DNA from: Dickeya poaceiphila
GTDB lineage: Bacteria; Pseudomonadota; Gammaproteobacteria; Enterobacterales; Enterobacteriaceae
Direction of reading: 5' to 3'
NCBI RefSeq assembly: GCF_007858975.2
Contig: NZ_CP042220.2
Location: 3,596,001 to 3,660,000, forward strand
DNA: 64,000 nucleotides
A program made the position numbers and the translations under genes. The notes under the pieces were generated by a model. That model ran no database searches, was not told the origin of the DNA, and saw only the letters and a list, made by a program, of their open reading frames with translations. Each line of letters begins with the position of its first letter. Position 1 is the stretch's first letter. Of this stretch, positions 6,545 to 48,662 are shown piece by piece.

Positions 6545-7618
6545 TCAGGAGCTCATACCTTCAGAGCTTTCCGGCTGCATAATCGTTATGGTACCTTTCC
6601 ACGTCAACACTTTTACGATTCTTGCAATAGCCAGACAATAGGCTACAAATACGCCTATAAATCCCAATAACATCATATACTCCGGCACACCATACCATTC
6701 ACAAACAACACCAATCAGTGCCAGCAATAATGCCATACCCATAATAATCAACAATGTTTGACGAGAACTAAACCCACAAAGCATTAATATGTGATGCAAA
6801 TGCTCACGATCTGGTCTGAACGGGCTATTGCCGCGCCGGATACGTTTTATCATTACCGCAGCCATATCCATCAATGGAATAGCAATAACCCATAAAGCTG
6901 TAACAGGCTGCATGACCGCATGTTCACCCTGTGTAGCAATAATTAACACCCAAATAACAGTAAAGCCGATAAGTGTACTCCCGGCATCCCCCATAAAGAC
7001 TTTGAACTTCATACCCCCAAAAAGCCCCAGATTAAGAACAATGTAAGGTAATGTTGCCGCCAAGAAGCACAAACTCCATAACGCCAGTTCTTCACGACCT
7101 TTTAAAGAAAAAACGAGTGCTATGGCACCAAAAGTTATGCAACTTAGACATCCCAGTAATCCATCAATACCATCAACCATATTGAAGGCATTAATGGCCC
7201 CCCATACAGCAAACAGCGTGATTACATATCCAACAATCCCCAATAGAAGTTCATGCTGGCCAAGGATTCTTCCAAAAGAAGAAAGATAAAGGCCGCTCCA
7301 CATCATCAGCATGGCTGTCAATGCCTGCAAAGCCACACGAGGTAATACAGGTAGATCAAAGCGATCATCCAAAACTCCGATCAACAGTAATCCACTAGCG
7401 CACAACATGTAGGTATTAAAGGAGGGAAGCCAGTCAGAATGGAAAACGAACATAACCCAGAGCGAAAGATAAATCGATATACCTCCCGCTAAAGGAATAT
7501 GTCCATGATGTTTTTTTCGACTATTAGGTTTGTCAACCAGCCCAACTTTTTTTGCAGCTTTACGCGCGATAAAAAGCAATCCAAACGCGCTGACAAATAC
7601 CAGAAGGAAATCGCTCAT
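6545..7618 (-). CDS. WecA-like undecaprenyl-phosphate N-acetylhexosamine-1-phosphate transferase
   Basis: This is a 357-aa polytopic membrane enzyme that starts repeat-unit synthesis by moving a HexNAc-1-phosphate (GlcNAc in WecA) from its UDP-sugar to undecaprenyl phosphate. Family motifs are all present: 'GVLDDRFDLP' (Asp-rich site), 'NAFNMVDGIDGLLG', 'VFMGDAGSTLIGF' and the loop 'FRPDREHLHH' with its His pair. About 10-11 hydrophobic segments are seen. It is the first gene of the ops-led capsule operon, 125 bp before wza. WecA itself normally sits in the enterobacterial common antigen cluster, so this is probably a capsule-specific paralogue. Its sugar specificity cannot be read from sequence. 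Confidence 0.9.
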   Translation of the reverse strand: MSDFLLVFVSAFGLLFIARKAAKKVGLVDKPNSRKKHHGHIPLAGGISIYLSLWVMFVFHSDWLPSFNTYMLCASGLLLIGVLDDRFDLPVLPRVALQALTAMLMMWSGLYLSSFGRILGQHELLLGIVGYVITLFAVWGAINAFNMVDGIDGLLGCLSCITFGAIALVFSLKGREELALWSLCFLAATLPYIVLNLGLFGGMKFKVFMGDAGSTLIGFTVIWVLIIATQGEHAVMQPVTALWVIAIPLMDMAAVMIKRIRRGNSPFRPDREHLHHILMLCGFSSRQTLLIIMGMALLLALIGVVCEWYGVPEYMMLLGFIGVFVAYCLAIARIVKVLTWKGTITIMQPESSEGMSS

Positions 7619-7655
7619 ATACTATCATGACCTGTCTTTTCTATAGGTAATCGAC

Positions 7656-7690
7656 CAAGCTACCGCCCTTGGCTTTCAGCTACCAATTAG
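7656..7690 (-). promoter_or_regulatory. JUMPStart with ops element of the capsule operon
   Basis: On the minus strand, 7667 to 7657 reads GGCGGTAGCTT, the ops pause element that recruits RfaH. It is preceded by 'GGTAGCTGAAAGCCAAGG', the conserved upstream half of JUMPStart. It lies 38 bp before the start of the WecA-like gene, inside the untranslated leader. RfaH-dependent antitermination and translation coupling of the long operon is the expected consequence, from the known biology of this element. A second copy precedes rfbB. Confidence 0.92.
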
Positions 7691-8130
7691 CTATCTATTG
7701 CAAATTCAGTCAGTTGTAGATTACTCTTATTATACAGACACAGACTGACGTTCAAAACCACAACATTCTCTACTGATAAAAAAAACTGCAATAAATAAAA
7801 CCTATCCCTATAGCGTTCTATTTTAATTACTATTTTGAACCCAAATAGTGTTCGAAATCCTCACTGACTACCTTAACTACGCCCCCCCAGATTTGCGTAC
7901 TGCCTGAACAAAAACTAGCCATGTCAATTACATCTGGCGGTGAATACCTGACAATAAGCACATTGAGTGCTCCATTAGTATGTATGAATACTCATCAATC
8001 ACAATCATACATCCAGGCTCCCAAGTCTCATTCTTGTTGCTACTCAACAGTTAGCCTCATTTTAGAACAGACTACTGACTTAAATTCTATCATTAGCCAG
8101 AATGTGTGAAGAATGCCTGAAGAACATTCT

Positions 8131-8181
8131 TATTGATACACCAGGTTATTTTTCATCTAAAAATAACCTGGTGTATCAATA
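8131..8181. repeat. Perfect 23-bp inverted repeat with 5-nt loop
   Basis: Positions 8131-8153 and 8159-8181 are exact reverse complements (left arm TATTGATACACCAGG... to the loop), separated by CATCT. The core CACCAGGTTATTTTT is not GC-rich, and there is no clear T-run on the 3' side in either direction, so it is not a typical intrinsic terminator. It could be a cruciform, the end of a small mobile element, or a protein-binding site. Confidence 0.8.
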
Positions 8182-8283
8182 TTCTACTGCTAAATCCTGC
8201 AACTCTAAAATTTTGACAGCGTTGCCTACACCCCTGATTACTGGCTGCTTTCAGCAAGTGTGAAACTTTCTTGATTTCACTAT

Positions 8284-8328
8284 GGTCTGGTCTGGTCTGG
8301 TCTGGTCTGGTCTGGTCTGGTCTGGTCT
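8284..8328. repeat. Pentanucleotide microsatellite (GGTCT)x9
   Basis: There are nine perfect uninterrupted copies of GGTCT. On the minus strand the unit is AGACC, and three units (15 bp) would encode one repeat of T-R-P-D-Q in a short 81-codon reading frame (8398 to 8153). A unit that is not a multiple of three and has this many perfect copies is prone to slipped-strand copy-number change. It lies 620 bp upstream of the capsule operon leader, so any phase-variable effect would be on transcription or on the short ORF. Confidence 0.9.
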
Positions 8329-8702
8329 GAGTATTTAATACATTACCTATTTTATTAATTTTATAGATTTTTTGGGGCAATGTGTAAAAAAAATCCATTA
8401 ATCTATACTGCGCTAATTGTATAAAGAATTATATTCGTCAATCAATAAATAATTGATTTCGCAACAGACGCCCCTAAACCCAATCCGAAAAAACAAAATA
8501 AAAATCAATATCATAATGTAATTGCATCTCTAATTGAAGGCACTATAGAATCATCATCTGACTGGCTCTGGCCCTAGTCCCTCCGGTTTTTAGTACCACC
8601 GCCAATGAGGATCTCCGGCCAGTTGATCTCTTCCCTTTGTTCAGTACCGGTGTAAAGTAGAGTTTTCGGCCCATTTTCTCCGTAAAAAAGAGGTCATCCG
8701 GC

Positions 8703-36350: not shown

Positions 36351-36559
36351 TAATCTTTCGCTAGGGCTGATTGCAGTCATTTTTTTGCTCGCCACTGATC
36401 GGAAAGATCTCACACCGCAACGCATCTTTTTATGGGAAAGAGGGCTATGCAGCCAGAGAATGGATGTTCAGCAAATATCACATCCTCACTCACAGAGCGT
36501 TCAATGAAAGCCCTCTCCCTTCATCAGCAAAACCGCATACATATACAAGCAAAGGTACG

Positions 36560-36670
36560 TTGGTTAAGTCGGTTCAATAAGTAAAGATAGTTGTTTTTAC
36601 TGGTTATTTTCATAATAAATGAACCAACACAGGGGTGTTTTGAACCAACATCCGCCTTTGGCTGAACCAA
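36560..36670. repeat. Iteron cluster C (inverted partial copy of module A)
   Basis: TTGGTTAA (36560), TCGGTTCA (36569), then TGAACCAA at 36620, 36641 and 36663. The segment around 36571-36590 (GGTTCAATAAGTAAAGATAG) is nearly the reverse complement of 39783-39800. It lies 3 kb from the main iteron modules, on the other side of the phage genes. Confidence 0.7.
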
Positions 36671-36706
36671 CATCATGCACATTTGATGTGTTTTCGAGGG
36701 TGTCTA

Positions 36707-37444
36707 TCAATCCAAATCAGGAAGCATCCTTTCCAGCTCCGCCTGTGCTCTGGCGTAGTCCTCTGGCGTGTAATTCACCTGAACAACAGGGCCACCGTCT
36801 TTGCCTGTCACCTCCTGGGTGATGCGCTCGCCATATTTTTTCGGGGCCATGCGGGACAGTACCCATTTTCTGGCGTCTATTTTTAACCGGGATTTTGCTA
36901 CTTCAGCGGCATCTGCTTCAGTGCTGTCAGCGATATCAATTATCTCGTCAAAAATCACATCGGCGCGGACATCGGTTGCTTTCGCGTACTGGTCGCGAAA
37001 TACCTCATTTTCTGCCAGCCAGCGAAAGACGGTTGCCTTGTTTGGCATACCGGGGTGGCGGCATACATCGCGCAGGCTTTCACCGTCTGCCAGCAATGTG
37101 CAAATGTCGTCTGCAACCTCCGGCATATAGTCGGATGGGCGTCCGGTGTGGTTTTTCTTAACGGTCAGACGATTTTTTTCAATTGACGGGCAATTTGAAT
37201 CAATTTGGTTTTCAATTGGCGAAATTGATTTTTTTGGGGGCGTTTGCCGGTTCGCACCGGGCATCTTTAGCGAACCTTGCGAACGGTGGTTTACCGCTCT
37301 TTTCCAGCCGTAAAGTTTTGCGTTTTTGCGTATGGCCGCGTCGCTGATACCATGCTGGCGCGCTAACGCCCGAATGGATAACTCGCCTTCACAGTATTCT
37401 CTCTCTATCGTTGCCCAGTCAGTTGCGGGGTGATTAATCGCCAT
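36707..37444 (-). CDS. Phage small terminase subunit-like protein
   Basis: This 245-aa protein is expected to recognise packaging sites on DNA. There are two helix-turn-helix segments: 'SIRALARQHGISDAAIRKNA' at the N-terminus, and 'DGESLRDVCRHPGMPNKATV' with 'FRWLAENEVFRDQYAKATDV' in the centre, the latter pattern being typical of small terminases. It ends in an acidic 'RAQAELERMLPDLD' helix. No large terminase, portal or capsid gene is present in the element. A lone TerS beside an integrase and primase is a hallmark of phage-inducible islands, which use it to redirect helper packaging. That role is an inference. Confidence 0.72.
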   Translation of the reverse strand: MAINHPATDWATIEREYCEGELSIRALARQHGISDAAIRKNAKLYGWKRAVNHRSQGSLKMPGANRQTPPKKSISPIENQIDSNCPSIEKNRLTVKKNHTGRPSDYMPEVADDICTLLADGESLRDVCRHPGMPNKATVFRWLAENEVFRDQYAKATDVRADVIFDEIIDIADSTEADAAEVAKSRLKIDARKWVLSRMAPKKYGERITQEVTGKDGGPVVQVNYTPEDYARAQAELERMLPDLD

Positions 37445-37522
37445 TGTGCTTACCCTTATCGTATTGCTGTTCTTGTATACCGCTCAATCGCAGGTATCGT
37501 CTGGCCGTGGTGCGCGTTGGCA

Positions 37523-39217
37523 TCACCTCCCCAGTACATAGGATTGCTGCCAGCGCTTAGCCGTTTCACCAATTGCTGCCGCGGCTGCGTCTTTCATTTG
37601 TTGTTCATTCAGACCAGCACCGGATATGTTGAATTCGTTTTGCTGGTTGATGACCATCCCGCCGCCAGCGCTTCCACCCTGCCCAATAACGGGTAGCGCC
37701 GCAGGTGTTGGCACTGCTCCAGCTCTGTAACCGTAATCACCGAGATAGTTCGCCATGTCTGCCTGTGACCTTTTAGGCTGCGCATATGGAGACGACGGCA
37801 GAGAGGCCCATACACCACCAAGCCCATTTGTCGCCGACATAAAATCACCGTTGACGACGTTATCCAGTTGCCCGGCACGCTGGATTAGCCATAAAGCGGC
37901 CATGTCCTGGCTACGGGGTGAAAAGTCGGTCAGGCCCAGAGCGGATGCCGCTTCATCCCACGATTTTTGAGTGAACTGATAGCGCCCGGCGGCGGACGTT
38001 TTATTTTGGACTCCGTCCGTTTGCGTGAATGGTTTCAGGATCCGTGGGTGATCTGACATATTGGCGAACTGCTCACCGCCAAATAGAGTGTTATATCCAT
38101 TGTTCATGTGGCCCGCCGTTCCTTCGGCTTTTGCGATAGCATCCAGATATGCGCGAGCGTTGGGGTTGTCTACCAATTTTCCTATTTCACCGCTCGTCTG
38201 GCGCTGGTATGCCTCGCGCGGACTCACCCCGCCGCCAGACCCGCCACGATTCAACAGGGGATTGCTCATGGCTCTGGCTTCATCGGCTGATGTAAAAATG
38301 TTTCCCGGCGTCAAGGCGGCTGCGGCTTCGAGGGTCAGGGGATTAAAGAGCAGGCGAGACAGTAAACCTCTGCTGGCGGTGGGAACCGGTCCTTTAGGTG
38401 GGGTGGGTCGGAGGAGCCACTTTAACATGCCGCTACCTGCGACAACGCTTCCTACACCAGCTGCTGTCAGCATCCCTTTTGCAGTGCCTGGGTTTTCCTG
38501 AATAAACCTGTTGGTGACTTTCAGCAGGTCGTTAACGACGGGAATAATCCCTTTTCCGAGCGAAATCGCTAACGCATCAAGATTGTTTTTGAACTGGGCC
38601 ATTTCATCGTTAAACACCTGCGCATTCTTTAGCAATTCGTTATCAATCGGAAACGGCATGTTGCCTGCCATCTTCATGGATTCATCAAGAAAACCGCTGC
38701 CTTTTTCCGACAGCCTGATGAGTGGTGAGTCCTGGCCGGTTTCTGCCCCCTGACGTAAAAACGTTCTCTGGTCATAATTCATCTTGCTGTAGGCGTTGAT
38801 GAAGTATTTCAACCCATTCATGGCGTCCATGCGGGCAAACTCGGTGGGGTTAAATGCCGCGCCCCAGTACGCCTTATCGCCCAACTGACCAAACCGCGCC
38901 TTTAATTGCAGGGCGGGGATCATCTTGGCAATATCCTGCGCGGCTTCCGGGTTGATTTTAAGCCGGTTCATCGCCATCTCCAGCCCCTGAATCTGGCGAA
39001 TGGTAAACCCGGTATTATCTGCAACGCGCTTCATCTCCAACGCGGTTTGAGCCACGCCGGAGATCAGCGCCCTGAGCCCCATGCCTGTACCGGCAACGGC
39101 AGCCAACTGGAGGATTTTGTCGCTTACGCCTTTAATCGCATCATTCGCCTTTTGAAAGGATTTGGCATCCATTTTCAGGCCAAGCGAAATCAACAGTTCA
39201 TCAATGGTCTGTGCCAT
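37523..39217 (-). CDS. Tape-measure-like protein with muramidase domain
   Basis: This is a 564-aa phage tail protein. The N-terminal 60 residues ('LGLKMDAKSFQKANDAIKGV') and the hydrophobic segment after them resemble tail tape-measure proteins. Residues about 350-455 form a lysozyme-like domain related to the lambda R/GH104 type: 'AIAKAEGTAGHMNNGYNTLF', 'HPRILKPF' and 'TSAAGRYQFTQKSWDEAASA'. The C-terminus is a glycine-rich linker and a helix. It is short for a tape measure (usually 700 or more residues). No other tail gene is present, so it may modify helper tails or act as a lysin. Confidence 0.7.
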   Translation of the reverse strand: MAQTIDELLISLGLKMDAKSFQKANDAIKGVSDKILQLAAVAGTGMGLRALISGVAQTALEMKRVADNTGFTIRQIQGLEMAMNRLKINPEAAQDIAKMIPALQLKARFGQLGDKAYWGAAFNPTEFARMDAMNGLKYFINAYSKMNYDQRTFLRQGAETGQDSPLIRLSEKGSGFLDESMKMAGNMPFPIDNELLKNAQVFNDEMAQFKNNLDALAISLGKGIIPVVNDLLKVTNRFIQENPGTAKGMLTAAGVGSVVAGSGMLKWLLRPTPPKGPVPTASRGLLSRLLFNPLTLEAAAALTPGNIFTSADEARAMSNPLLNRGGSGGGVSPREAYQRQTSGEIGKLVDNPNARAYLDAIAKAEGTAGHMNNGYNTLFGGEQFANMSDHPRILKPFTQTDGVQNKTSAAGRYQFTQKSWDEAASALGLTDFSPRSQDMAALWLIQRAGQLDNVVNGDFMSATNGLGGVWASLPSSPYAQPKRSQADMANYLGDYGYRAGAVPTPAALPVIGQGGSAGGGMVINQQNEFNISGAGLNEQQMKDAAAAAIGETAKRWQQSYVLGR

Positions 39218-39389
39218 GCAACACCCCGATATCGTGTAACGCCTTATCCATCAGGCTGCGTGCGATAGCGTGTACCGTGGGCGCAATACCCAGCGGTGAC
39301 TGGCGGCGCTCCTGCTCCTGAATACGGCGGAGTGCCTCCACCTGATGCCTGCTGAGTAAAACCGGTTTGACCTTGCTGCCCGCGTCCAT
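39201..39389 (-). CDS. Small phage protein, possible ribbon-helix-helix
   Basis: This 62-aa basic protein (VKPVLLSRHQVEALRRIQEQ, then 'APTVHAIARSLMDKAL') has a strand-helix-helix pattern reminiscent of ribbon-helix-helix DNA-binding proteins. It overlaps the start of the tape-measure-like gene by 17 bases, so the two are probably co-translated. Function is unknown; a repressor or regulator of the two phage genes is one possibility. Confidence 0.55.
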   Translation of the reverse strand: MDAGSKVKPVLLSRHQVEALRRIQEQERRQSPLGIAPTVHAIARSLMDKALHDIGVLHGTDH

Positions 39390-39556
39390 ACATCCCCCTG
39401 AGCATGATATTTATACAGTAATCATTATTTCATAAATTGAAATGATATCAATTTGTGTTGCGAAAATAGGGATAATGGCGTGTGGCCGGTTCATCGGGCT
39501 ACGGCTCTCTGCTTTTTTATTCCCGCCCAATTCCCCTATAGATCAGCAGAAAGATG

Positions 39557-39821
39557 TCGGTTCAGTTGGTTCAGTTGGTTCACGGGCCGCCAAGCCGCGC
39601 CAGCGCTGGATTTGTGTGAACCAACATCGCATCTGTTTCGTTGGTTCAGACGTGCTTTTTGTTGGTTCACGCATCCCGCCAGCCAGAAAGTAACCGGGTA
39701 CGTCGCCGTGTTGGTTCAAAATGCCCCTTTGTTGGTTCAGTGTTGGTTCAACAATGGATACGTTTTCCTTGTAAAACAAACATCTTTACTTATTGAACCA
39801 ACTGAACTGACTGAACCAACA
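39557..39821. repeat. Iteron module A (TTGGTTCA)
   Basis: TTGGTTCA or its complement TGAACCAA occurs at 39566, 39575, 39617, 39641, 39662, 39711, 39732, 39743, 39794 and 39812, with a variant CGGTTCA at 39558. The module opens with three direct copies and closes with three inverted ones (the middle one degenerate). The last direct and first inverted copies flank an AT-rich core with 'TTTTCCTTGTAAAACA'. Confidence 0.85.
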
Positions 39822-39920
39822 CACCTTCTACGTGTGTGAAAGCATCCTGTTCTGGCCGGTTGTCCTCTGGCTGGTGCTGAAACGTTGGCGTGACGACGAT
39901 ATACAGACACAAAACATCAC

Positions 39921-40217
39921 GGGTTCAGCGGGTTCACGGGTTCAGTTGCGTACCGTTACTATTTTTTTGTCTTTTCAAACATCGGGTTAAAAAATATTGC
40001 TCGCTTTTTGCGCTAAAAATTGAACCCGTAAAGCTGTGCGCTGAACCCGTTTGATAGGGTGTCGCCACGGGTTCACGCCGCCCACCAGAAAATGAGGCCC
40101 AAAAGGAAACGGGTTCAGAGTGCGGCAAAACGGGTTCAAGACGGGTTCAACAGGAAACCTGTTTCCCTTATAAAACAGGCCTTTTTACAGAGTGAACCCG
40201 TTGAACCCGCTGAACCG
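39921..40217. repeat. Iteron module B (GGGTTCA)
   Basis: GGGTTCA occurs at 39921, 39930, 39938, 40069, 40111, 40132 and 40143. Its complement TGAACCC is at 40021, 40042, 40193 and 40202, with a variant at 40211. The layout copies module A: three direct copies, scattered singles, an AT-rich core 'TTTCCCTTATAAAACA', then three inverted copies. It lies directly downstream of the primase-helicase stop. Confidence 0.85.
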
Positions 40218-40254
40218 TTATGTTTTATTCGTGTGTGAGCCACACAAGGGGCTG

Positions 40255-42930
40255 TTACTCCGTATCCGGGGCATACATCAGGACATAGAAAACCGGCTGA
40301 CGCCCCTCCACACGCACCGCCTTCTTTTTAAACCGGTCTTTCCCCGGCTCTAACATCCCCGCATCGGCCAGCACTTTCGCAAACTGCCTGACGTTAAACC
40401 CCCTGGCGATTTCGCCCTCAAAGGTGGCCGGGAAGGTGTAGAACATCATCGGGGCGGCATCGTGCTTGCCCCTGTCCCGGTATCCGGCAAGGTCGCGTAT
40501 GGGCAGGTCTTGCGGGTTGTAGGGCAGCGGGGCAAACCGGCTCAGGCCGTGGGCGTTCAGGAACGCTTCGCACTGCTCGATAATCTGCTGGTGCTCCTTG
40601 TTGCCGGTGCCGAATTCGCGCACCCAGGCATTAAAGCTGTGTTGTATCGCATCCCGGCCCGTCTGTTCATCCCAGCCGGTAATGACCCGGCCCAGCGACA
40701 GCGCCGCCTCCATCACGGCAAAGCGGGCGGCCACCCGGTGAACCTGCTCGCCATAGTCGGCAGGAATGAGACTGCGCCAGCGTGTTTCAGCGGCTCTGAC
40801 GGCCTCGATAGCCTGTTGCGGGTGGTCGGCAAGGTGCTTAATCCACGCCCGGCCTGCGGCACCGTGGTACTGCTGACAGGCGTCTTTCAGTGCGTCGGCG
40901 TGCTGTTTGCCGTTGGCATGTTCATGAAAGCACGCCGTTTTGCTTAACGGGATGTTCAGCAGCCGTACCAGTTGGCCCGCCTTGGTTTTTCTGCCCACAC
41001 TGGCAATGAACGTTTCCAAATCCATTTCGCCGGTGCTGATTGCCACCGTGCGCCAGCGCTTTAACTCCCGGTTGCCGCCTTCTTTGGCTCCCTGCAATTT
41101 GCCGACGCCGTTAAACAGTGCATAGGCGGCCTGCGCCACGCTCACCGGGTCAGCGCCCTGACCGACTTCATCGAGTGGCATCAGCGCGTCGTTGTGGGCG
41201 GCGGCTTCGTTCGCCAGCCCCAGCGCGGTGCCGTACCACGTCAGGCGCAGTAACTCCGGGTTACCGTACAGGCTGGAGGCAACACTGGCGGTGGTGGTTT
41301 TCCCGGCGCTCGATTGCTCATAGAAATGGATGCCGAATCCGTCAGCCCCCACCAGACCGATTAACGGGGCGGCCAGCGCCGCCGCTATACCGGTCATCAT
41401 GGCGTAATTGCCCCCGGCAAGGCGGGCCACGGTGTCGCGCCAGCCCGCTGCCGTGCCGCTGACGGTGTAGCCTGCGGCGGCCGCGCTGCGCCCGCTGAAC
41501 AGTACCGGCCTGTCAGGGGTTCCGATGATTTCCCCGTCCGGCATGAGGTAAGCCCCACACTGCCAGCCGGTCGCGTGCGCGATATGCCAGATATCCCGTG
41601 CGGCACTGCGCTGGAGCCAGTCGGCCAGAATGGCGCGCAGGCTGTTTTTGGTGGTGACGTTCACGCCGCCGTTTTTCAGCGTTCGCCAGCCCTCGCGCTC
41701 GCCGATATCCGCCAGCGGAATGGCCTGTGTGGTGTCGGTCTTCGCGCCGATGGGCCGCCAGCGCATTATCAGGTACTGGTCTTTGTCGTCCCGGCCAATG
41801 CCCACCACTGCCAGCGGGGAGCACAGCCAGCTTTCATTGTTGATAATCTCGCCGCTGTCTTTATCCACTTTGGGGGTTATCCAGAACACGCCGTCCCGGC
41901 GACTTTGTACGTGCGGTTTTAACGGGTCGCTATGCGTTGGCCTGCTGTCGTCCGGTTCATCCGCTGGCGGCGAATACAGTGAGGCGGCAAATGCCTGTGT
42001 GGCGGCCATCAGCCCGTATTGCTGGCGGTAATCGTCCCAGTCGGCCTTTTCATTGGTCGGCGGCAGCGCCACCTGGCCGTTCACCGCACGGGCGGCTTTC
42101 TCCGCCCAGTCTTTCCCTGCGTTCGGCATCTCCGGTTTGATGTCGTTATCGGCGGCCAGAATGATACGAGCGCTGGCATACCGGGTGCGCATGGCCTTTG
42201 ACACCGGCACCATGTTGCCCGCGTCGATAGCGGCGAGGGTCAGCGCCTCCGGGCGCATCTGGTGAACGCTTAATGCCGTCGCCAGCCCTTCGGCGATAAT
42301 CACCGTATCGGGCTGTGCGGGCGCATTTACCGCGTGATACGCGCCGCGTTTTGCCGAGTCCGTCACCAGTCGCTTGCCGCCATCGGGTTTTATTGTCTGT
42401 GCGGCGGTGGTGGTGCCGCTGGCGTCCTGTAACGTCAGCAGCAGGGTGCCATCGGGCAGCAGCGGATACGACAACCCGGTTAAGCCCTTTCCGGCCAGAT
42501 AGGCGGACTCCCCCGGCTGTGCCTGTGCGGTCAGTTTTTTCAGCCGTGCGGCAAAGCGCCGGGCTTTTTCTGCGGTACGGGTCTGCTCGTCGGCAGACGG
42601 TGATTGCCGGGTATCATACTGGCGCGTGTCCGGCGCTGGCGCACCGGCTGGCATTCCCAGCGCGTCGGCCACCAGCCGGGCGGCGGCGGTGATATCGCAC
42701 TGCCTGACTTTCTGCACCAATTCAAGGCCGTCACCGGCCCCGCACTGATTACAGAAATGCGCCCCGCGCCCGTCATCATCAAAACGGAAGCGGTCTTTAC
42801 CCCCGCACGCCGGGCAGGGGGCGTGCTGGCGGGCATTGTCGGGAACCGTAATCCCCAGCAGGGCCAGCACATCAGGCCAGCGGCCCACCGCCGAGCGGGT
42901 CACTTCACGGATAAAATCGATATTACGCAT
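40255..42930 (-). CDS. P4-alpha-like primase-helicase
   Basis: This is an 891-aa replication protein. It has a zinc-ribbon primase domain (C39, C42, C60, C63 in 'CPACGG' and 'HFCNQC'). A Toprim region follows near residue 208 ('VIIAEGLATALS' with 'IILAADND'). A DUF927-type helicase domain has Walker A 'EQSSAGKTTTAS' near residue 540 and 'MPLDEVGQGADP' as a B-type motif. Proteins of this kind prime, unwind and recognise iterons for P4-like satellites. The ATG at 42930 follows GAGGG with good spacing; a longer frame to 43002 overlaps the upstream gene. It is the last gene of the replication operon. Confidence 0.9.
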   Translation of the reverse strand: MRNIDFIREVTRSAVGRWPDVLALLGITVPDNARQHAPCPACGGKDRFRFDDDGRGAHFCNQCGAGDGLELVQKVRQCDITAAARLVADALGMPAGAPAPDTRQYDTRQSPSADEQTRTAEKARRFAARLKKLTAQAQPGESAYLAGKGLTGLSYPLLPDGTLLLTLQDASGTTTAAQTIKPDGGKRLVTDSAKRGAYHAVNAPAQPDTVIIAEGLATALSVHQMRPEALTLAAIDAGNMVPVSKAMRTRYASARIILAADNDIKPEMPNAGKDWAEKAARAVNGQVALPPTNEKADWDDYRQQYGLMAATQAFAASLYSPPADEPDDSRPTHSDPLKPHVQSRRDGVFWITPKVDKDSGEIINNESWLCSPLAVVGIGRDDKDQYLIMRWRPIGAKTDTTQAIPLADIGEREGWRTLKNGGVNVTTKNSLRAILADWLQRSAARDIWHIAHATGWQCGAYLMPDGEIIGTPDRPVLFSGRSAAAAGYTVSGTAAGWRDTVARLAGGNYAMMTGIAAALAAPLIGLVGADGFGIHFYEQSSAGKTTTASVASSLYGNPELLRLTWYGTALGLANEAAAHNDALMPLDEVGQGADPVSVAQAAYALFNGVGKLQGAKEGGNRELKRWRTVAISTGEMDLETFIASVGRKTKAGQLVRLLNIPLSKTACFHEHANGKQHADALKDACQQYHGAAGRAWIKHLADHPQQAIEAVRAAETRWRSLIPADYGEQVHRVAARFAVMEAALSLGRVITGWDEQTGRDAIQHSFNAWVREFGTGNKEHQQIIEQCEAFLNAHGLSRFAPLPYNPQDLPIRDLAGYRDRGKHDAAPMMFYTFPATFEGEIARGFNVRQFAKVLADAGMLEPGKDRFKKKAVRVEGRQPVFYVLMYAPDTE

Positions 42931-42940
42931 TCCATTTCCC

Positions 42941-43570
42941 TCAGTGCGTTGCCGGTGACGGCAGCACGCTATCCAGCGCGAAGAGCTGTAACGCCTGGTC
43001 ATGCAGGGTCGCCATCACACTGTGCCCGGTTTCGGTCAGCTCACCGGCCACCGGCCCCACCATAGCGACATAGAGCGCCAGCGCATTGCGCCGCCCGTCT
43101 TCCTCCCCATACGCGGCTGTCATGGCACCTTCGACCGCACCGGCAAGGGTTGCACGCTCTGCGGCAGGAAACACGGGTAATTCACCGTACTGGCTGCGAT
43201 ACAGCGCGGCGGTTATCGGGTGGCCGCTGTCGTCCGTCACGGTGACGCAGCCGTTTATCGCTTCCTGCTCAAGCACGAATTTCACCGCGACAAACCAGCG
43301 GAACAGGATCAGTTTCTGCCGGTCATCCGGCCTGAAATGGCCCTGTAGCATGGCATCGGTCAGCGCCCGCACCACCTGAATGCCGGTCAATAACGCCCGG
43401 TCATATTCAGTGCTGTCCAGACGGGAAACGGCCTCATCAAAGGTCAGTAAGCAGGGTTCATCCGGCACGGCGGCGCTCTCGTGGGTGATGAGGATACCGT
43501 CGGGCAGCATCTCAACGTGATGACGGGCAGATTGCGCCGCCAGCATGGAAATAGGGCGTTGTTTGTTCAC
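42941..43570 (-). CDS. Conserved P4-element protein of unknown function
   Basis: This 209-aa soluble protein has no recognised motif (MNKQRPISMLAAQSARHHVE; 'LLTGIQVVRALTDAMLQGHF'; 'VAMVGPVAGELTETGHSVMA'). It lies 10 bp upstream of the primase-helicase gene and overlaps the preceding small gene by 4 bp, so it belongs to the replication operon. Similar-size unknown proteins are common at this position in P4-like elements. Confidence 0.7.
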   Translation of the reverse strand: MNKQRPISMLAAQSARHHVEMLPDGILITHESAAVPDEPCLLTFDEAVSRLDSTEYDRALLTGIQVVRALTDAMLQGHFRPDDRQKLILFRWFVAVKFVLEQEAINGCVTVTDDSGHPITAALYRSQYGELPVFPAAERATLAGAVEGAMTAAYGEEDGRRNALALYVAMVGPVAGELTETGHSVMATLHDQALQLFALDSVLPSPATH

Positions 43571-43773
43571 TGTGCTTCTCCCATTGGCGCAACAACCTGC
43601 CAGCCCGCCAGCCGGGCCAGCTCCAGAAAGGCATCCAGACAGGCGACGTGTTCATCATCGAATAACCGGCGGTCACTGGTGGCTCTGCCGTTCTCCACAT
43701 ACACCAGCACGCGCCCGGAAAAGTCATGCGGCACGCTCAGTGTGGCGTTGAGGGTGGGGAGTTGGTCATGCAT
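43567..43773 (-). CDS. Small P4-element protein (68 aa)
   Basis: MHDQLPTLNATLSVPHDFSG, then 'RVLVYVENGRATSDRRLFDD'. The start ATG at 43773 overlaps the stop of the upstream gene (ATGCATGA), and its own end overlaps the next gene by 4 bp. GGAGG lies 8-10 bases upstream of the ATG. The length and tight packing support it as real; function is unknown. The longer reading frame to 43926 is only a shadow of the upstream gene. Confidence 0.65.
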   Translation of the reverse strand: MHDQLPTLNATLSVPHDFSGRVLVYVENGRATSDRRLFDDEHVACLDAFLELARLAGWQVVAPMGEAQ

Positions 43774-43954
43774 AGGACACCTCCGCTTGTTCAGGCTCTT
43801 TCTGGCTGGTGCGATACAGATGGTCGATACGCTCCTGCAGGACAAACAGCAGGATTTCACGCGCCTGCGGTTCATCCGTATTGACGGCGGCATAGGCCAG
43901 CGCCCGGCACTGGTCGATAATTTCATCCAGTTCTAACGGGGTGTTATCAAACAT
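43766..43954 (-). CDS. Small P4-element protein (62 aa)
   Basis: MFDNTPLELDEIIDQCRALA, ending 'QKEPEQAEVSYA'; an acidic, mainly helical protein. The ATG at 43954 overlaps the TGA of the Icd-like gene, a coupling junction. Its frame is continuous upstream with the ash-like frame, so a 246-aa fused product is formally possible. Function is unknown. Confidence 0.65.
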   Translation of the reverse strand: MFDNTPLELDEIIDQCRALAYAAVNTDEPQAREILLFVLQERIDHLYRTSQKEPEQAEVSYA

Positions 43955-44144
43955 GGCGCACCGCCTTAACCGGCAGGCGGCCCGCGAAAAAGCAGAGGTG
44001 ATCGCCAGCCAGTGTGCGGCGGGCTTCGTGTTCAGAAACGGCGGGGATACGGTGAATGACCGGTTTTTGTGTGAGACAGTCGCGGCGGATTGCGGCAATA
44101 AGCCAGATAAATTGCGGTGTTGGGGTAGGGGTAGTAGCCAGCAT
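43947..44144 (-). CDS. Icd-like host cell-division inhibitor family protein
   Basis: This 65-aa protein contains 'PQFIWLIAAIRRDCLTQKPV' and 'SEHEARRTLAGDHLCFFAGR' followed by LPVKAVRH, the pattern of Icd-like proteins in P4-type prophages. It has a strong GGAGG ribbon six bases before the ATG at 44144 and lies in a different frame inside the ash-like gene. P4 Icd affects host division, but most relatives are untested, so the activity is not assured. Confidence 0.75.
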   Translation of the reverse strand: MLATTPTPTPQFIWLIAAIRRDCLTQKPVIHRIPAVSEHEARRTLAGDHLCFFAGRLPVKAVRHV

Positions 44145-44506
44145 GTGGCAGCCTCCATTCGATATGGTTTAAACCCACCACCGAAGAGACCAATCTTGCT
44201 GGTGGTGGACTGTACGGAGTTGGTCTTACCGGCTCGAATGGATACCGGCGCTTCCGAAGAAGCCCCCGCACAGCCCACCATAATTTTGTGCGCGGCACGG
44301 ATTATACCCGCCTCGCTGAAGAAAGGGTGTACTGAGCTTACGACACAAAAAAAGACGCTCGGCGCGTCATGTGTCGCCATTCGAATTACCGGGAGACCAA
44401 TCCCGGCACCAGATTTTGCTGGTGCCCGTTGAAAATAGCCCATCTGTAAAGCAAACGGCAAGCAGTTTTTGCGTACCCTGCGGGCAGCGTCGCGTAAGTT
44501 ACGCAT
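43955..44506 (-). CDS. Ash-family protein (overlaps icd)
   Basis: The central part 'VSSVHPFFSEAGIIRAAHKI' then 'MVGCAGASSEAPVSIRAGKT' and 'NSVQSTTSKIGLFGGG' is the Phage_ASH pattern found in P4-like elements. The frame opens with an ATG at 44506 inside the last codons of the AntA-type gene, and an internal Met (MATHDAPS) is another possible start. The frame has no stop until 43766, so the end given here is the last base before the next gene's start, not a real terminus. The nesting of icd inside it is typical for P4 relatives. Confidence 0.55.
44393..44427 (-). ncRNA. Possible P4-type CI immunity RNA hairpin
   Basis: GGCACCAG/CTGGTGCC (44405-44412 and 44419-44426) make a perfect 8-bp stem with a six-base loop. 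Beside it is GAGACCAAT (44393-44401), which recurs at 44186-44194 next to another TGCTGGTGG. In P4, a short RNA from this region pairs with two nearby complementary sequences to terminate the operon. The layout agrees, but no promoter was mapped. Confidence 0.4.
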
Positions 44507-45341
44507 GGTTCACCCCCAGCCGTTTTGCCATCCAGCGCTGAGACAGCCGGGTTAATTCGGCTTTGCGCTGGGGGTAGTCCTGCCCCAGCTCAATCAGCGT
44601 GATGTTGGTCTGCTCAAGGTAGGAAAGGTGCTCCAGTTGGTCGGCGCTCATGCTGTCACGGGGTTCACCGGTTACACCATTGGCCTGCGCCCAGTCTTTT
44701 GCCGTCAGGCCGCCCAGTACCAGGCGGGCGATCATGTTGCTTTCGGTGGTGTAGTGGTGCGGCAGGGTTTTCTTGCCCAGCTCAGAACGGGCGGTTTCCA
44801 GTGCGGCGCACATCGGTTTGAAGTAATTCGCGGCGGTCAGGCGGGCTTTGAGCTGGCGGCGAAAACGGGCGGCCACTTCCGGTACGCTACGGTGTAAGGC
44901 TTCCTCGCACTGGATGAAGTAACGACGAACGGCACGGCCCTGCTCGTTACGCTCAACCATTGCCAGTTCTTTTGCCATGTTAAGTGACAGCACATAATCC
45001 TTTTCAGGGCGTCCACGTTTGGTAATTACTGCCCGTTTTGGCAATAATTGCTCATAATTTGTACTTTGATTCACCAATTCAGGGGAATCAAAAGTTATGA
45101 AATCGACACCCTCCACAAAGCCGTATTCTTCTACCCTTCCCTTTATCCAGTTGGCAAAAAATCGCCCTACACCCAGCGCAATATGCAGGGATTTGGCGCT
45201 CACAATACTGGTTTCGCGTTCGCCTATCCGGCCAGAAATCACCGGGATTAATTCGGCAAAGCCATTACTGGAAATATCGCTCTGGCAGTTTTCAGGGTGA
45301 GCGAGTCCCTGACCGTGAAGGTCATTGTTTTTTGATGTCAT
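44499..45341 (-). CDS. AntA/AntB-type antirepressor protein
   Basis: This is a 280-aa phage regulatory protein. The AntA domain covers roughly residues 30-135: 'VSAKSLHIALGVGRFFANWI' and 'GFVEGVDFITFDSPELV', then 'NMAKELAMVERNEQGRAVRR'. The C-terminal half (HYTTESNMIARLVLGGLTAK) resembles a second domain seen in phage antirepressors. Such proteins counter CI-type repressors or helper repressors. It overlaps the ash-like start by a few bases. Confidence 0.78.
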   Translation of the reverse strand: MTSKNNDLHGQGLAHPENCQSDISSNGFAELIPVISGRIGERETSIVSAKSLHIALGVGRFFANWIKGRVEEYGFVEGVDFITFDSPELVNQSTNYEQLLPKRAVITKRGRPEKDYVLSLNMAKELAMVERNEQGRAVRRYFIQCEEALHRSVPEVAARFRRQLKARLTAANYFKPMCAALETARSELGKKTLPHHYTTESNMIARLVLGGLTAKDWAQANGVTGEPRDSMSADQLEHLSYLEQTNITLIELGQDYPQRKAELTRLSQRWMAKRLGVNHA

Positions 45342-45355
45342 AAAATCAGGTTCCG

Positions 45356-45799
45356 TTAGCGGGCGGCGTAATCCGGGTACAGGCTTAGAATATGGTTAAT
45401 TTCCTGTTGGGTAAGCGGCGGGTGGCCGTTAATCTCGGCGTTACTATTGACCAGTCGAATGACGCGGGAAATATCATCACGCGTTGCAAATCGATAGCGG
45501 TAATGACTGCCGATCCCGTCAGCGTTGGGTTCGTCAATACGCGCTAACCGAATATTAAGCAGGCGTTCTAATTCCGTGGCGTAATTCCGGCCAGAAGAAA
45601 GGCGGCAGTGATGGAGAATGTCATTCTCAGTAAAACCACCTGCACCGGAACGCAGCATGAAAACCCGTGCGCGATGCTTCTTAGGGACTGGCCTTATCCG
45701 CGCTGGCTGGTTATTATGTCCGCCAGCAATATGCATTTGCGCAGCAGGTTTATTTTGTTCACATTGACGCCCGGTAGCACGGGCGTTTTTTGTTTGCAT
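45356..45799 (-). CDS. Hypothetical element protein (147 aa)
   Basis: It has a basic, probably disordered N-terminus (MQTKNARATGRQCEQNKPAA) and a folded C-terminal part ('MLRSGAGGFTENDILHHCRL', 'RLLNIRLARIDEPN', 'YRYRFATRDDISRVIRLVN') that looks like a winged-helix. The ATG shares a base with the AlpA stop (TAATG). Function is unknown; a DNA-binding regulatory role fits its place between alpA and the antirepressor gene. Confidence 0.65.
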   Translation of the reverse strand: MQTKNARATGRQCEQNKPAAQMHIAGGHNNQPARIRPVPKKHRARVFMLRSGAGGFTENDILHHCRLSSGRNYATELERLLNIRLARIDEPNADGIGSHYRYRFATRDDISRVIRLVNSNAEINGHPPLTQQEINHILSLYPDYAAR

Positions 45800-45996
45800 T
45801 ATGCAACCTCCCCGCGAGACTCGGCGATACGCTGATTAATCCAGTCATCAATTTCACTTTCAACGAAAGCTATTGAACGAGAGCCGATCTTTACCGGCTG
45901 CGGGAAGCGATCTTGGCTAATAAGGCGATAGAGCCATGCCTTGCTATAGCCGGTACGGCGCTGGACTTCGGGGAGCCGAATAAGATTATTAGACAT
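45799..45996 (-). CDS. AlpA-family excisionase/regulator
   Basis: This is a 65-aa helix-turn-helix protein: 'LPEVQRRTGYSKAWLYRLIS' then 'FPQPVKIGSRSIAFVESEID' and 'DWINQRI', the complete AlpA/MerR-like fold. AlpA proteins activate integrase expression or act as excision factors in P4-like elements and PICIs. It heads the leftward operon, just after the ACCCT-type palindromes that may be its operators. Confidence 0.92.
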   Translation of the reverse strand: MSNNLIRLPEVQRRTGYSKAWLYRLISQDRFPQPVKIGSRSIAFVESEIDDWINQRIAESRGEVA

Positions 45997-47209: not shown

Positions 47210-48424
47210 TTATGCGCGTTTCCCAAACGAGCCGTGAACCACATTTTCGCCGCTCTCTAGCGCGTCCATATAGTCCGCATACCACTGGAGCATTTCACGC
47301 CTGCCATCCAGATATTGGGCATGGTTATAGGTGCCACGAATTGAGTTTTTATCGACGTGGGCAAGCTGGGTTTCAATCCATGCTGTGTTGTAGCCCTGTT
47401 CGTGGAGAATGGTACTCATGGTGTGGCGAAAGCCATGTCCAGTGACTCGACCAGCGTAACCGATGCGGCGGATAAGCACATTCATCGCCATTTCGCTCAT
47501 GGGCTTGCTGTGGTGAACTCTGCCGGGAAACACGTACTTATATTGGCCTGTCATCGGCTTTAGCTGCTCCAGAATGGCAATAGCCTGACTGGATAGCGGC
47601 ACACAGTGAGGGCGGCGTTTTTTCATCCGTGCCGGCGGCACTTCCCATAGCTGATTATCGAAATCAAACTCTGACCATTCAGCCTTTCGCAACTCTCCTG
47701 GTCTCAGGCCGGTAATCACCAGCAGACGCATAGCCAGCTTGACGATCAGGCTGCCGGTATAGGTGTTCAGAACGCGAAAGAATTCGGGAATTTCGCCAAC
47801 AGCCAGAAAGGCATAATGTTCTTTCTTGTGGGGGGCAAACGCGCTGGCAAGGTCTGGAGCCGGGTTGTATTCCGCCCTCCCGGTCACTACAGCATAGCGC
47901 CACACCTCACCGCACCGTTGACGTACTTTACGCAGTTTCTCCGTAGCACCGCGATCATTCAGGCGGGAAAGTACCGCCATCAGTTCCATCGGCTTTATTT
48001 CAGCAATAGGACGGTGGCCGATATAGGGAAACACGTCAGCCTCAAATGTCTTGATCATTTCCTCGGCATAAGATGCTGACCAGCGATCAAAACGCTTTTC
48101 ATACCATTCGCGGGCTATCCCCTCAAAGGTATTACCAATCGCTTCCTGTCTGGCCTGTTTCTCCTGCTTACGCACCTCGCTGGGGTTGATACCAGATGCC
48201 ACCAGCTTTTTTGCCTCATCACGTCTCTGGCGGGCATCGTTCAACGATACGGTGGGATATGTCCCCAGTGAAAGCATTTTAGGCTTACCGTCAAACCGAT
48301 AACGAAAGCGCCACCCCTTTGAACCGTTCGGCTCAATGAGTATAGAAAGCCCATTTCCGTCATTAAGTGTATAGGGCTTCTCTTTCGGCTTGGATCGCCT
48401 GATTTCAAGGTCTGTGAGGGGCAT
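47210..48424 (-). CDS. P4-type tyrosine integrase
   Basis: This is a 404-aa site-specific recombinase with the DUF4102 N-terminal domain ('MPLTDLEIRRSKPKEKPYTL', 'GWRFRYRFDGKPKMLSLGTY'), an SAM-like core-binding domain, and a catalytic domain. The residues are R in 'ITGLRPGELRKAEW', HxxR in 'GHGFRHTMSTIL', and the Tyr in 'IRGTYNHAQY'. It lies 165 bp from the tRNA-Gly gene, with putative arm sites between, so it integrates at that tRNA. P4-type integrases use tRNA 3' ends as attB. Confidence 0.95.
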   Translation of the reverse strand: MPLTDLEIRRSKPKEKPYTLNDGNGLSILIEPNGSKGWRFRYRFDGKPKMLSLGTYPTVSLNDARQRRDEAKKLVASGINPSEVRKQEKQARQEAIGNTFEGIAREWYEKRFDRWSASYAEEMIKTFEADVFPYIGHRPIAEIKPMELMAVLSRLNDRGATEKLRKVRQRCGEVWRYAVVTGRAEYNPAPDLASAFAPHKKEHYAFLAVGEIPEFFRVLNTYTGSLIVKLAMRLLVITGLRPGELRKAEWSEFDFDNQLWEVPPARMKKRRPHCVPLSSQAIAILEQLKPMTGQYKYVFPGRVHHSKPMSEMAMNVLIRRIGYAGRVTGHGFRHTMSTILHEQGYNTAWIETQLAHVDKNSIRGTYNHAQYLDGRREMLQWYADYMDALESGENVVHGSFGKRA

Positions 48425-48588: not shown

Positions 48589-48662
48589 TGGAGCGGGCGA
48601 AGGGAATCGAACCCTCGTATAGAGCTTGGGAAGCTCTCGTTCTACCATTGAACTACGCCCGC
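48589..48662 (-). tRNA. glyU: tRNA-Gly (anticodon CCC)
   Basis: A 74-nt tRNA with encoded CCA. The acceptor stem is GCGGGCG/CGCCCGC, the D-arm 'AGTTCAATGGTAGAAC', the anticodon stem 'GAGAGCTTCCCAAGCTCT' with CCC at the centre, and the T-arm 'GAGGGTTCGATTCCCTT'. It is nearly identical to E. coli glyU (tRNA-Gly1). Its 3' end serves as the attachment site of the adjacent integrative element and is kept intact. Confidence 0.97.

Follow-up and report, generated by a model that had tools for sequence, protein, structure and literature searches.

Phage-inducible chromosomal islands (PICIs) of Gram-negative bacteria of the EcCI type are described as carrying an integrase, AlpA and a primase with an iteron origin directly 3' of it in a one-way gene order, and their origins as having two iteron sets around an AT-rich core, with allelic Pri-Rep variants already described (Fillol-Salom et al. 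2018, PMC6092414, in the passages drawn on here). In the PLE (PICI-like element) satellites of Vibrio cholerae, the RepA_N DNA-binding domain and the ori are reported to covary and to have been exchanged at least twice with the rest of the initiator conserved, and an origin-directed phage nuclease is given as a plausible driver of the swapping (Barth et al. 2021, PMC8263062, likewise in part). A stretch of 64,000 nucleotides of Dickeya poaceiphila (contig NZ_CP042220.2, positions 3,596,001 to 3,660,000, hereafter the window) was analysed, which contains an element like the EcCI-type PICIs as these passages describe them in integrase, AlpA, primase with 3' iteron origin, one-way order, and two iteron sets with an AT-rich core. 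The descriptions in PMC6092414 drawn on here include no second, left-behind origin, whereas the window appears to have one. Two iteron modules follow the primase stop codon, module B first and module A beyond it. Module A is probably the former origin, and a cassette of the last 40 primase codons, the stop codon and module B would have been grafted in, with the present primase most likely initiating at B.

Both modules lie on the minus strand. Module B (39920..40217), the probable current origin, contains 11 CGGGTTCA iterons and an AT-rich core, and module A (39556..39821), the putative former origin, contains 10 exact TTGGTTCA iterons and an AT-rich core. TTGGTTCA was found 14 times in the window, with 10 copies at 39566-39819 (mean 2.77 and largest 8 in 100 dinucleotide shuffles), and CGGGTTCA 12 times, with 11 copies at 39920-40209 (mean 1.82 and largest 6). 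GGTTCA is the part common to the two words. The layout is also common to both. Up to three direct copies, spaced by about 9 bp, are followed by the AT-rich core and by inverted copies, of which the first lies 43 bp from the last direct copy and the next ones at +11 and then +21 bp; the second half holds single copies, and its closing copies are spaced by 8-9 bp. The original prediction of two tandem, similarly built modules with different words was borne out by the copy counts above all shuffles and by the matching spacing, and the AT-rich cores quoted in it are present in both modules. The interpretation of A and B as origin-type iteron arrays is supported at the sequence level, because each type was found elsewhere as the sole module immediately 3' of the primase family (A in many loci, B in L091).

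At E<=1e-100, relatives of the primase were found in 51 of 295 genomes of the family and in 27 of 394 of the order (overlapping sets). Further ones came from GTDB contigs (2 loci), from IMG/VR (7 loci and subsequently the best 80 of 232) and from E. coli genomes, and duplicate removal reduced the 160 loci to 138 distinct ones. A single cluster of a listed word right after the primase was recorded in 92 of them, none in 39 and more than one cluster or word in 7. Among these 7, L013, L014 and L071 mix two similar words inside one module, L027 and L068 have a second site with the same word, and separate modules that differ in word were found only in the window and in L066. Relatives with one module only had been named in the original prediction as an outcome against two origins; most relatives do have one module, but which one it is goes with the primase C-terminus. 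Of 18 loci tabulated, all but L001 and L067 show the +11/+20-21 step, and these 16 represent 10 of the 11 word classes. The 43-bp step was exact in 9 of the 18 and different in the rest.

The primase (915 aa) was compared with its closest relatives, L012 from the same genus and L003 from IMG/VR, both of which have module A only, directly after the primase. In 40-residue windows, they are 85-100% identical to it over aa 161-880, and the last window falls to 41%. Over the last 1,500 nt of the gene, DNA identity was 90-100% (L012) and 94-100% (L003) until about 125 nt before the stop codon, except for the first window at the alignment end (68-70%). In the final ~125 nt, identity to L012 and L003 drops to 46-67%, and identity to L091 is 80-92%. 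L091 is B-type only, with a single CGGGTTCA module in 4 kb and a C-terminus near-identical to that of the window primase, and its DNA is 82% identical to the window in an alignment that runs from the primase past module B to +348. The putative swapped specificity segment, aa 876-915 (40258..40377, minus strand), is of B type by DNA identity and comprises the second half of the recognition helix and the beta-wing of a structure model; its exact start at aa 876 was set by eye from the sequences. Between the modules, also on the minus strand, a remnant of about 32 nt (39850..39881) can be aligned to the final 32 coding nt of the primase genes of L012 and L003, apparently the 3' end of a former A-type primase gene, and a link (39882..39919) joins module B to the old DNA, similarity to L003 and L012 resuming at 39881. 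BLAST of the window against L003 gave colinear stretches at 37522-39881 and 40352-42588, with a gap between them of 470 nt in the window and 77 nt in L003.

From this mosaic we infer that B is read and A is not, that the two are present and past origins, respectively, and that the swap led from A to B. The initiator would recognise iterons immediately downstream of its own gene by a C-terminal winged helix, and the ancestor would have resembled L003 and L012 in having module A and a primase C-terminus of A type. From an element like L091, the codons of the last 40 residues may then have been brought in by recombination, in one piece with the stop codon and module B. The right-hand junction would have fallen inside the 3' end of the old primase gene, leaving behind the ~32-nt stub and the entire module A. 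The present primase should load at B, where it most likely initiates (CGGGTTCA), and A (TTGGTTCA) would be unused by it but might still serve A-type initiators from co-resident satellites as a binding site. The family would exchange such specificity cassettes repeatedly. Another candidate exchange, without a leftover module, is the pair formed by L091 and the A-type L098, which are 97.6% identical over aa 370-860; either partner may be the derived one.

Covariation of the iteron word with the primase was analysed in 94 of the 138 distinct loci, which were classed by word (44 were left out for body identity <50%, <4 copies or no assignable word); words were assigned by script, and some rest on few copies or one locus. 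The A word was the commonest (66 of 94). Dereplication at 97% body identity (aa 370-860) within word left 57 loci, which represent 11 word classes. Among pairs whose bodies are >=92% identical, C-terminal identity (aa 876-909) averaged 94% for the same word (28 pairs) and 54% for different words (15 pairs). The partial correlation of word sharing with the C-terminus, given body identity, was 0.78 in the 57 loci, and none of 2000 label permutations was as high. Along aa 370-910, the partial r ranged from -0.31 to 0.23 up to aa 784, was 0.14-0.37 at aa 770-884 and reached 0.81 at aa 870-904. Nearest neighbours shared the word in 49 of 53 cases when taken by the C-terminus, in 40 of 53 by aa 800-868 and in 37 of 53 by the body, and 12 word changes were needed on the C-terminal tree and 18 on the body tree (least possible 10). 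The residues most strongly associated with single word positions were 887 with position 1, 892 with 2, 893 and 898 with 4 and 5, 897 with 7, and 901 with 8 (window numbering, 60 loci, without tree correction). Word sharing thus appears to track mainly the last ~40 residues of the primase.

The domains of the primase were assigned as Zn_Ribbon_Prim (59-93), Toprim_3 (234-330), DUF927 (370-648; PF06048, E 5.5e-49) and a modelled C-terminal winged helix. The description of the protein as P4-alpha-like in the original prediction fits the zinc-ribbon/TOPRIM N-terminal third, which phage P4 alpha shares, but not the helicase part, which is DUF927 as in Rep of the Staphylococcus aureus pathogenicity islands (SaPI) and Cch of the staphylococcal cassette chromosome mec (SCCmec). 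Assignment to the P4 alpha replicases was rejected, the tblastn match to phage P4 being limited to aa 38-353 of 915 (35.6%). Sequence similarity to the DUF927 structures of SaPI Rep and SCCmec Cch (8tch, 5dgk) was weak (E 1.2e-8 for 8tch and 0.0045). A profile of the C-terminal domain matched no PDB sequence, and matches were given by fold comparison alone: the modelled fold is similar to those of TcpK, SaPI Rep and SCCmec Cch with moderate scores, the highest-Z match being TcpK (5vfy/5vfx), which covers the winged-helix part only (92-93 residues).

A second candidate case was found in E. coli 19AR0656 (L066), where an A-type primase end and module A are followed by three units with a 713-nt period (6872-8550). 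The start of each unit falls in the final 89 nt of a primase gene of T type (TTGTCTCA), and each unit also contains a T module and the beginning of an ssb gene. Two of the units match the element of E. coli PCN061 (L192) at 99.7%, the third lies within a 7.2-kb stretch matching it at 98.6%, and L192, at the same chromosomal place, has the stretch once. In the alignment, adjacent units have an 18-nt overlap, suggestive of a short sequence common to the joints. The place covering at least 80% of the L066 array was present in 33 of 5,426 E. coli genomes, with a one-piece match only in 19AR0656 itself. In L066, a new cassette appears to have been placed before three old ones. The tandem units leave three truncated ssb genes, which are annotated as partial.

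The graft of a B-type cassette has to be weighed against several points. The C-terminus is not the sole mosaic part, as the first ~120 residues of L012 also diverge from the window primase (55-72%; the L003 sequence begins only at aa 139), and L091, 82% identical to the window, is a relative of the donor rather than the donor itself. The word is also clustered on the body tree, whose 18 changes compare with a shuffled mean of 21.5 (0 of 200 shuffles as low), the permutation statistics take no account of the tree, and the fold-match scores of the C-terminal model are moderate. Module A is undecayed: its exact iterons, chosen as exact in the window, differ from L003 or L012 at 0 of 80 positions and its spacers at 22 and 17 of 174, and changes unique to the window were found in none of 96 columns in iteron slots and in 7 of 178 in spacers. 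These counts are too few to separate recent loss of use from continued use, and the kept iterons among changed spacers mean that A was under constraint at least until the swap. The undecayed iterons are also what would be expected if both modules were active, the primase reading B and A serving as a second working origin or binding site for the same protein (possibly more weakly) or for foreign A-type initiators. The latter should be common, given the rank of A as the commonest word and the matches in E. coli: window 39400-40300 was matched in 505 of 5,426 E. coli genomes, all of the 20 matches listed falling on module A, and the B cassette had no match in the 5,426 at E 1e-5. Relatives with secondary half-modules of their primary word also indicate that the family tolerates two sites. 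We nevertheless regard two active modules as unlikely, since the primase has a B-type C-terminus, its DRFKKK type being confined, among the 138 loci listed, to the two with the B word (the window and L091), no A-type initiator was found in the genome, where the sole other primase match is 43% over aa 12-350, and the secondary A half-module of the window has degenerate direct copies. The original prediction had left it between a protein reading both modules and A belonging to a former or helper replicase, and of these the evidence favours A from a former replicase.

Part of the covariation could be plain linkage, as the C-terminus and the module are adjacent, and if the two only travelled together, recognition would lie elsewhere in the protein, with which the mildly raised correlation (0.14-0.37) in windows covering aa 770-884 agrees. 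This is very improbable in view of the jump to 0.81, confined to ~40 residues that form part of the recognition helix and the wing of the modelled winged helix; moreover, TTGTCTCA is paired with a QG(R/K) motif of the wing in separate tree regions (L015/L016 and L035/L166/L167), and iterons within a module change in concert, with the +11/+21 step preserved in 16 of 18 loci. Duplication of one origin in place with concerted divergence of its iterons, as proposed in the original prediction, would explain the alike spacing and AT-rich cores of A and B, but it has next to no probability, since module B and the last 40 residues match L091, module A and the rest of the primase match L003 and L012, and a stub of the old primase 3' end lies between the modules. 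A doubtful extension of the proposed graft is that satellites keep stocks of origin cassettes (module A in the window; three T modules with an old primase tail in L066) that are still usable, either by several initiator types or for switching back by recombination, and thereby evade origin-directed attack or incompatibility between satellites.

With a putatively left-behind module A beside the B-type cassette, the window element works like the PLE swap without being a member of the PLE type. The PLE initiator is described, in the passages drawn on here, as a RepA_N protein with an N-terminal DNA-binding domain and two module groups, whereas the window family has an unrelated initiator (RepA_N was not among the Pfam matches of the window primase, which were Zn_Ribbon_Prim, Toprim_3 and DUF927), a C-terminal cassette of ~40 residues, at least 11 word classes and retained old origins. 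SaPI Rep and SCCmec Cch share the DUF927 helicase and a similar C-terminal fold, with downstream iterons in SaPI (PMC7581432, as far as drawn on here), and the window primase differs from them in its fusion to a zinc-ribbon/TOPRIM primase. TcpK of pCW3 is a winged helix that binds 9-nt tandem boxes by its beta-wing; unlike the window primase, it is a conjugation accessory protein and not an initiator (PMC6137059, in part). The CFT073 island, taken from its place and gene order as EcCICFT073, differs from the window in its 584-aa primase and another iteron word. The different words of modules A and B are unlike the P4 alpha system with ori and crr. In the parts of the open-licence literature searched, no report of origin/initiator exchange in DUF927 PICI primases was found, and PLE is the one clear precedent among the papers drawn on here. 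Replication-module swapping is known from PLE, and what is added here is the small cassette, the many words and the left-behind origins. A change of replication identity has apparently been caught with the recipient type, a donor relative, both junctions and the abandoned origin all visible. The at least 11 iteron words against a wing segment of ~40 residues on a recurrent spacing form a natural data set for a protein-DNA recognition code, and the case suggests that enterobacterial satellites, as the Vibrio PLEs, are under pressure to change origin specificity.

A third A-word half-module, degenerate and inverted, lies at 36559..36671 on the plus strand, with 3 TTGGTTCA copies and inverted copies 21 and 22 bp apart. 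Its counterparts are inverted second half-modules 2-7 kb past the primary module in L068 (2383-2499), L193 (3599-3715) and L116 (12572-12693), and the inverted-copy gaps in L068, L193 and the window are about 21-22 bp, not 11 and 21. The direct copies are intact with the primary word in L068 and L193 and degenerate in the window, which fits a loss of A reading but is a single case. We take these half-modules to be reminiscent of P4 crr. A wider scan of 171 loci with the primase C-terminus (duplicates included; >=4 copies, more than 460 nt away from the stop codon, limits that omit the window's own module A and third half-module) added the second half-modules with the primary word in L116 and L193 and, in L082, an isolated cluster of four copies at the opposite side of the primase.

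The element is judged PICI-like by gene content and order: AlpA, a primase with the iteron module immediately 3' (by anatomy), unidirectional gene order and terS are the PICI traits present. From the tRNA-Gly (48589-48662), the order on the minus strand is a tyrosine integrase (47210..48424) adjoining it, an AlpA regulator (45799..45996; PF05930, E 1.3e-17), an AntA antirepressor family protein (44499..45341; PF08346), an Ash family protein (43766..44506; PF10554), the TOPRIM-DUF927 primase-helicase, a Pri-Rep type initiator (40255..43002; Pfam, PHROGs), the origin modules and an Sf6-type terminase small subunit (36707..37444; PF20901). Every gene with a family match from 48424 to 36707 is on the minus strand. 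No second copy >=13 nt of the tRNA-Gly region, as a tRNA-derived attachment repeat, was found within the window. At 37523-39217, a 564-aa protein annotated by PHROGs as tail fiber protein/lysozyme is colinear with L003 and unusual beside a PICI-type origin, and the dTDP-sugar genes left of the element resemble host DNA. The second primase match in the Dickeya poaceiphila genome (L011, G000:C1:3931244-3932242) is N-terminal only.

Further elements of type B were sought by the pattern TGAACCCGNTGAACCCGNTGAACC, which with one mismatch was matched in 1 of 392 family genomes, namely the window's own. In viral contigs, 23 stretches with TGAACCCGNTGAACCCGNTGAACC were found. A two-strand iteron cluster was present only in L185 (the same as L091), and in the remaining 22 the densest group consists of one-strand copies at multiples of 9 nt, which are probably coding repeats. 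The module DNA gave one match of 81 nt in phage records and 7 matches in plasmid records, all on the module A side. Two satellites with A-type modules, L193 (NZ_CP148430.1, 12,152 bp, circular) and L194 (CP031370.2, 19,229 bp, circular), have been deposited as small 'plasmids', and such circular records are expected if satellites of this kind excise and replicate. In L013, L014 and L071, GGGGTTCA and GTGGTTCA iterons are mixed within one module, which may reflect a changing word or degeneracy at one recognition position. In L071, eleven GTTCGCA copies occur in ~90 bp at 884-975 nt after the primase stop codon, and in L079, twelve TACCCCG copies occur in ~95 bp at 315-410 nt after the stop codon, beside an ACGGGTT module.
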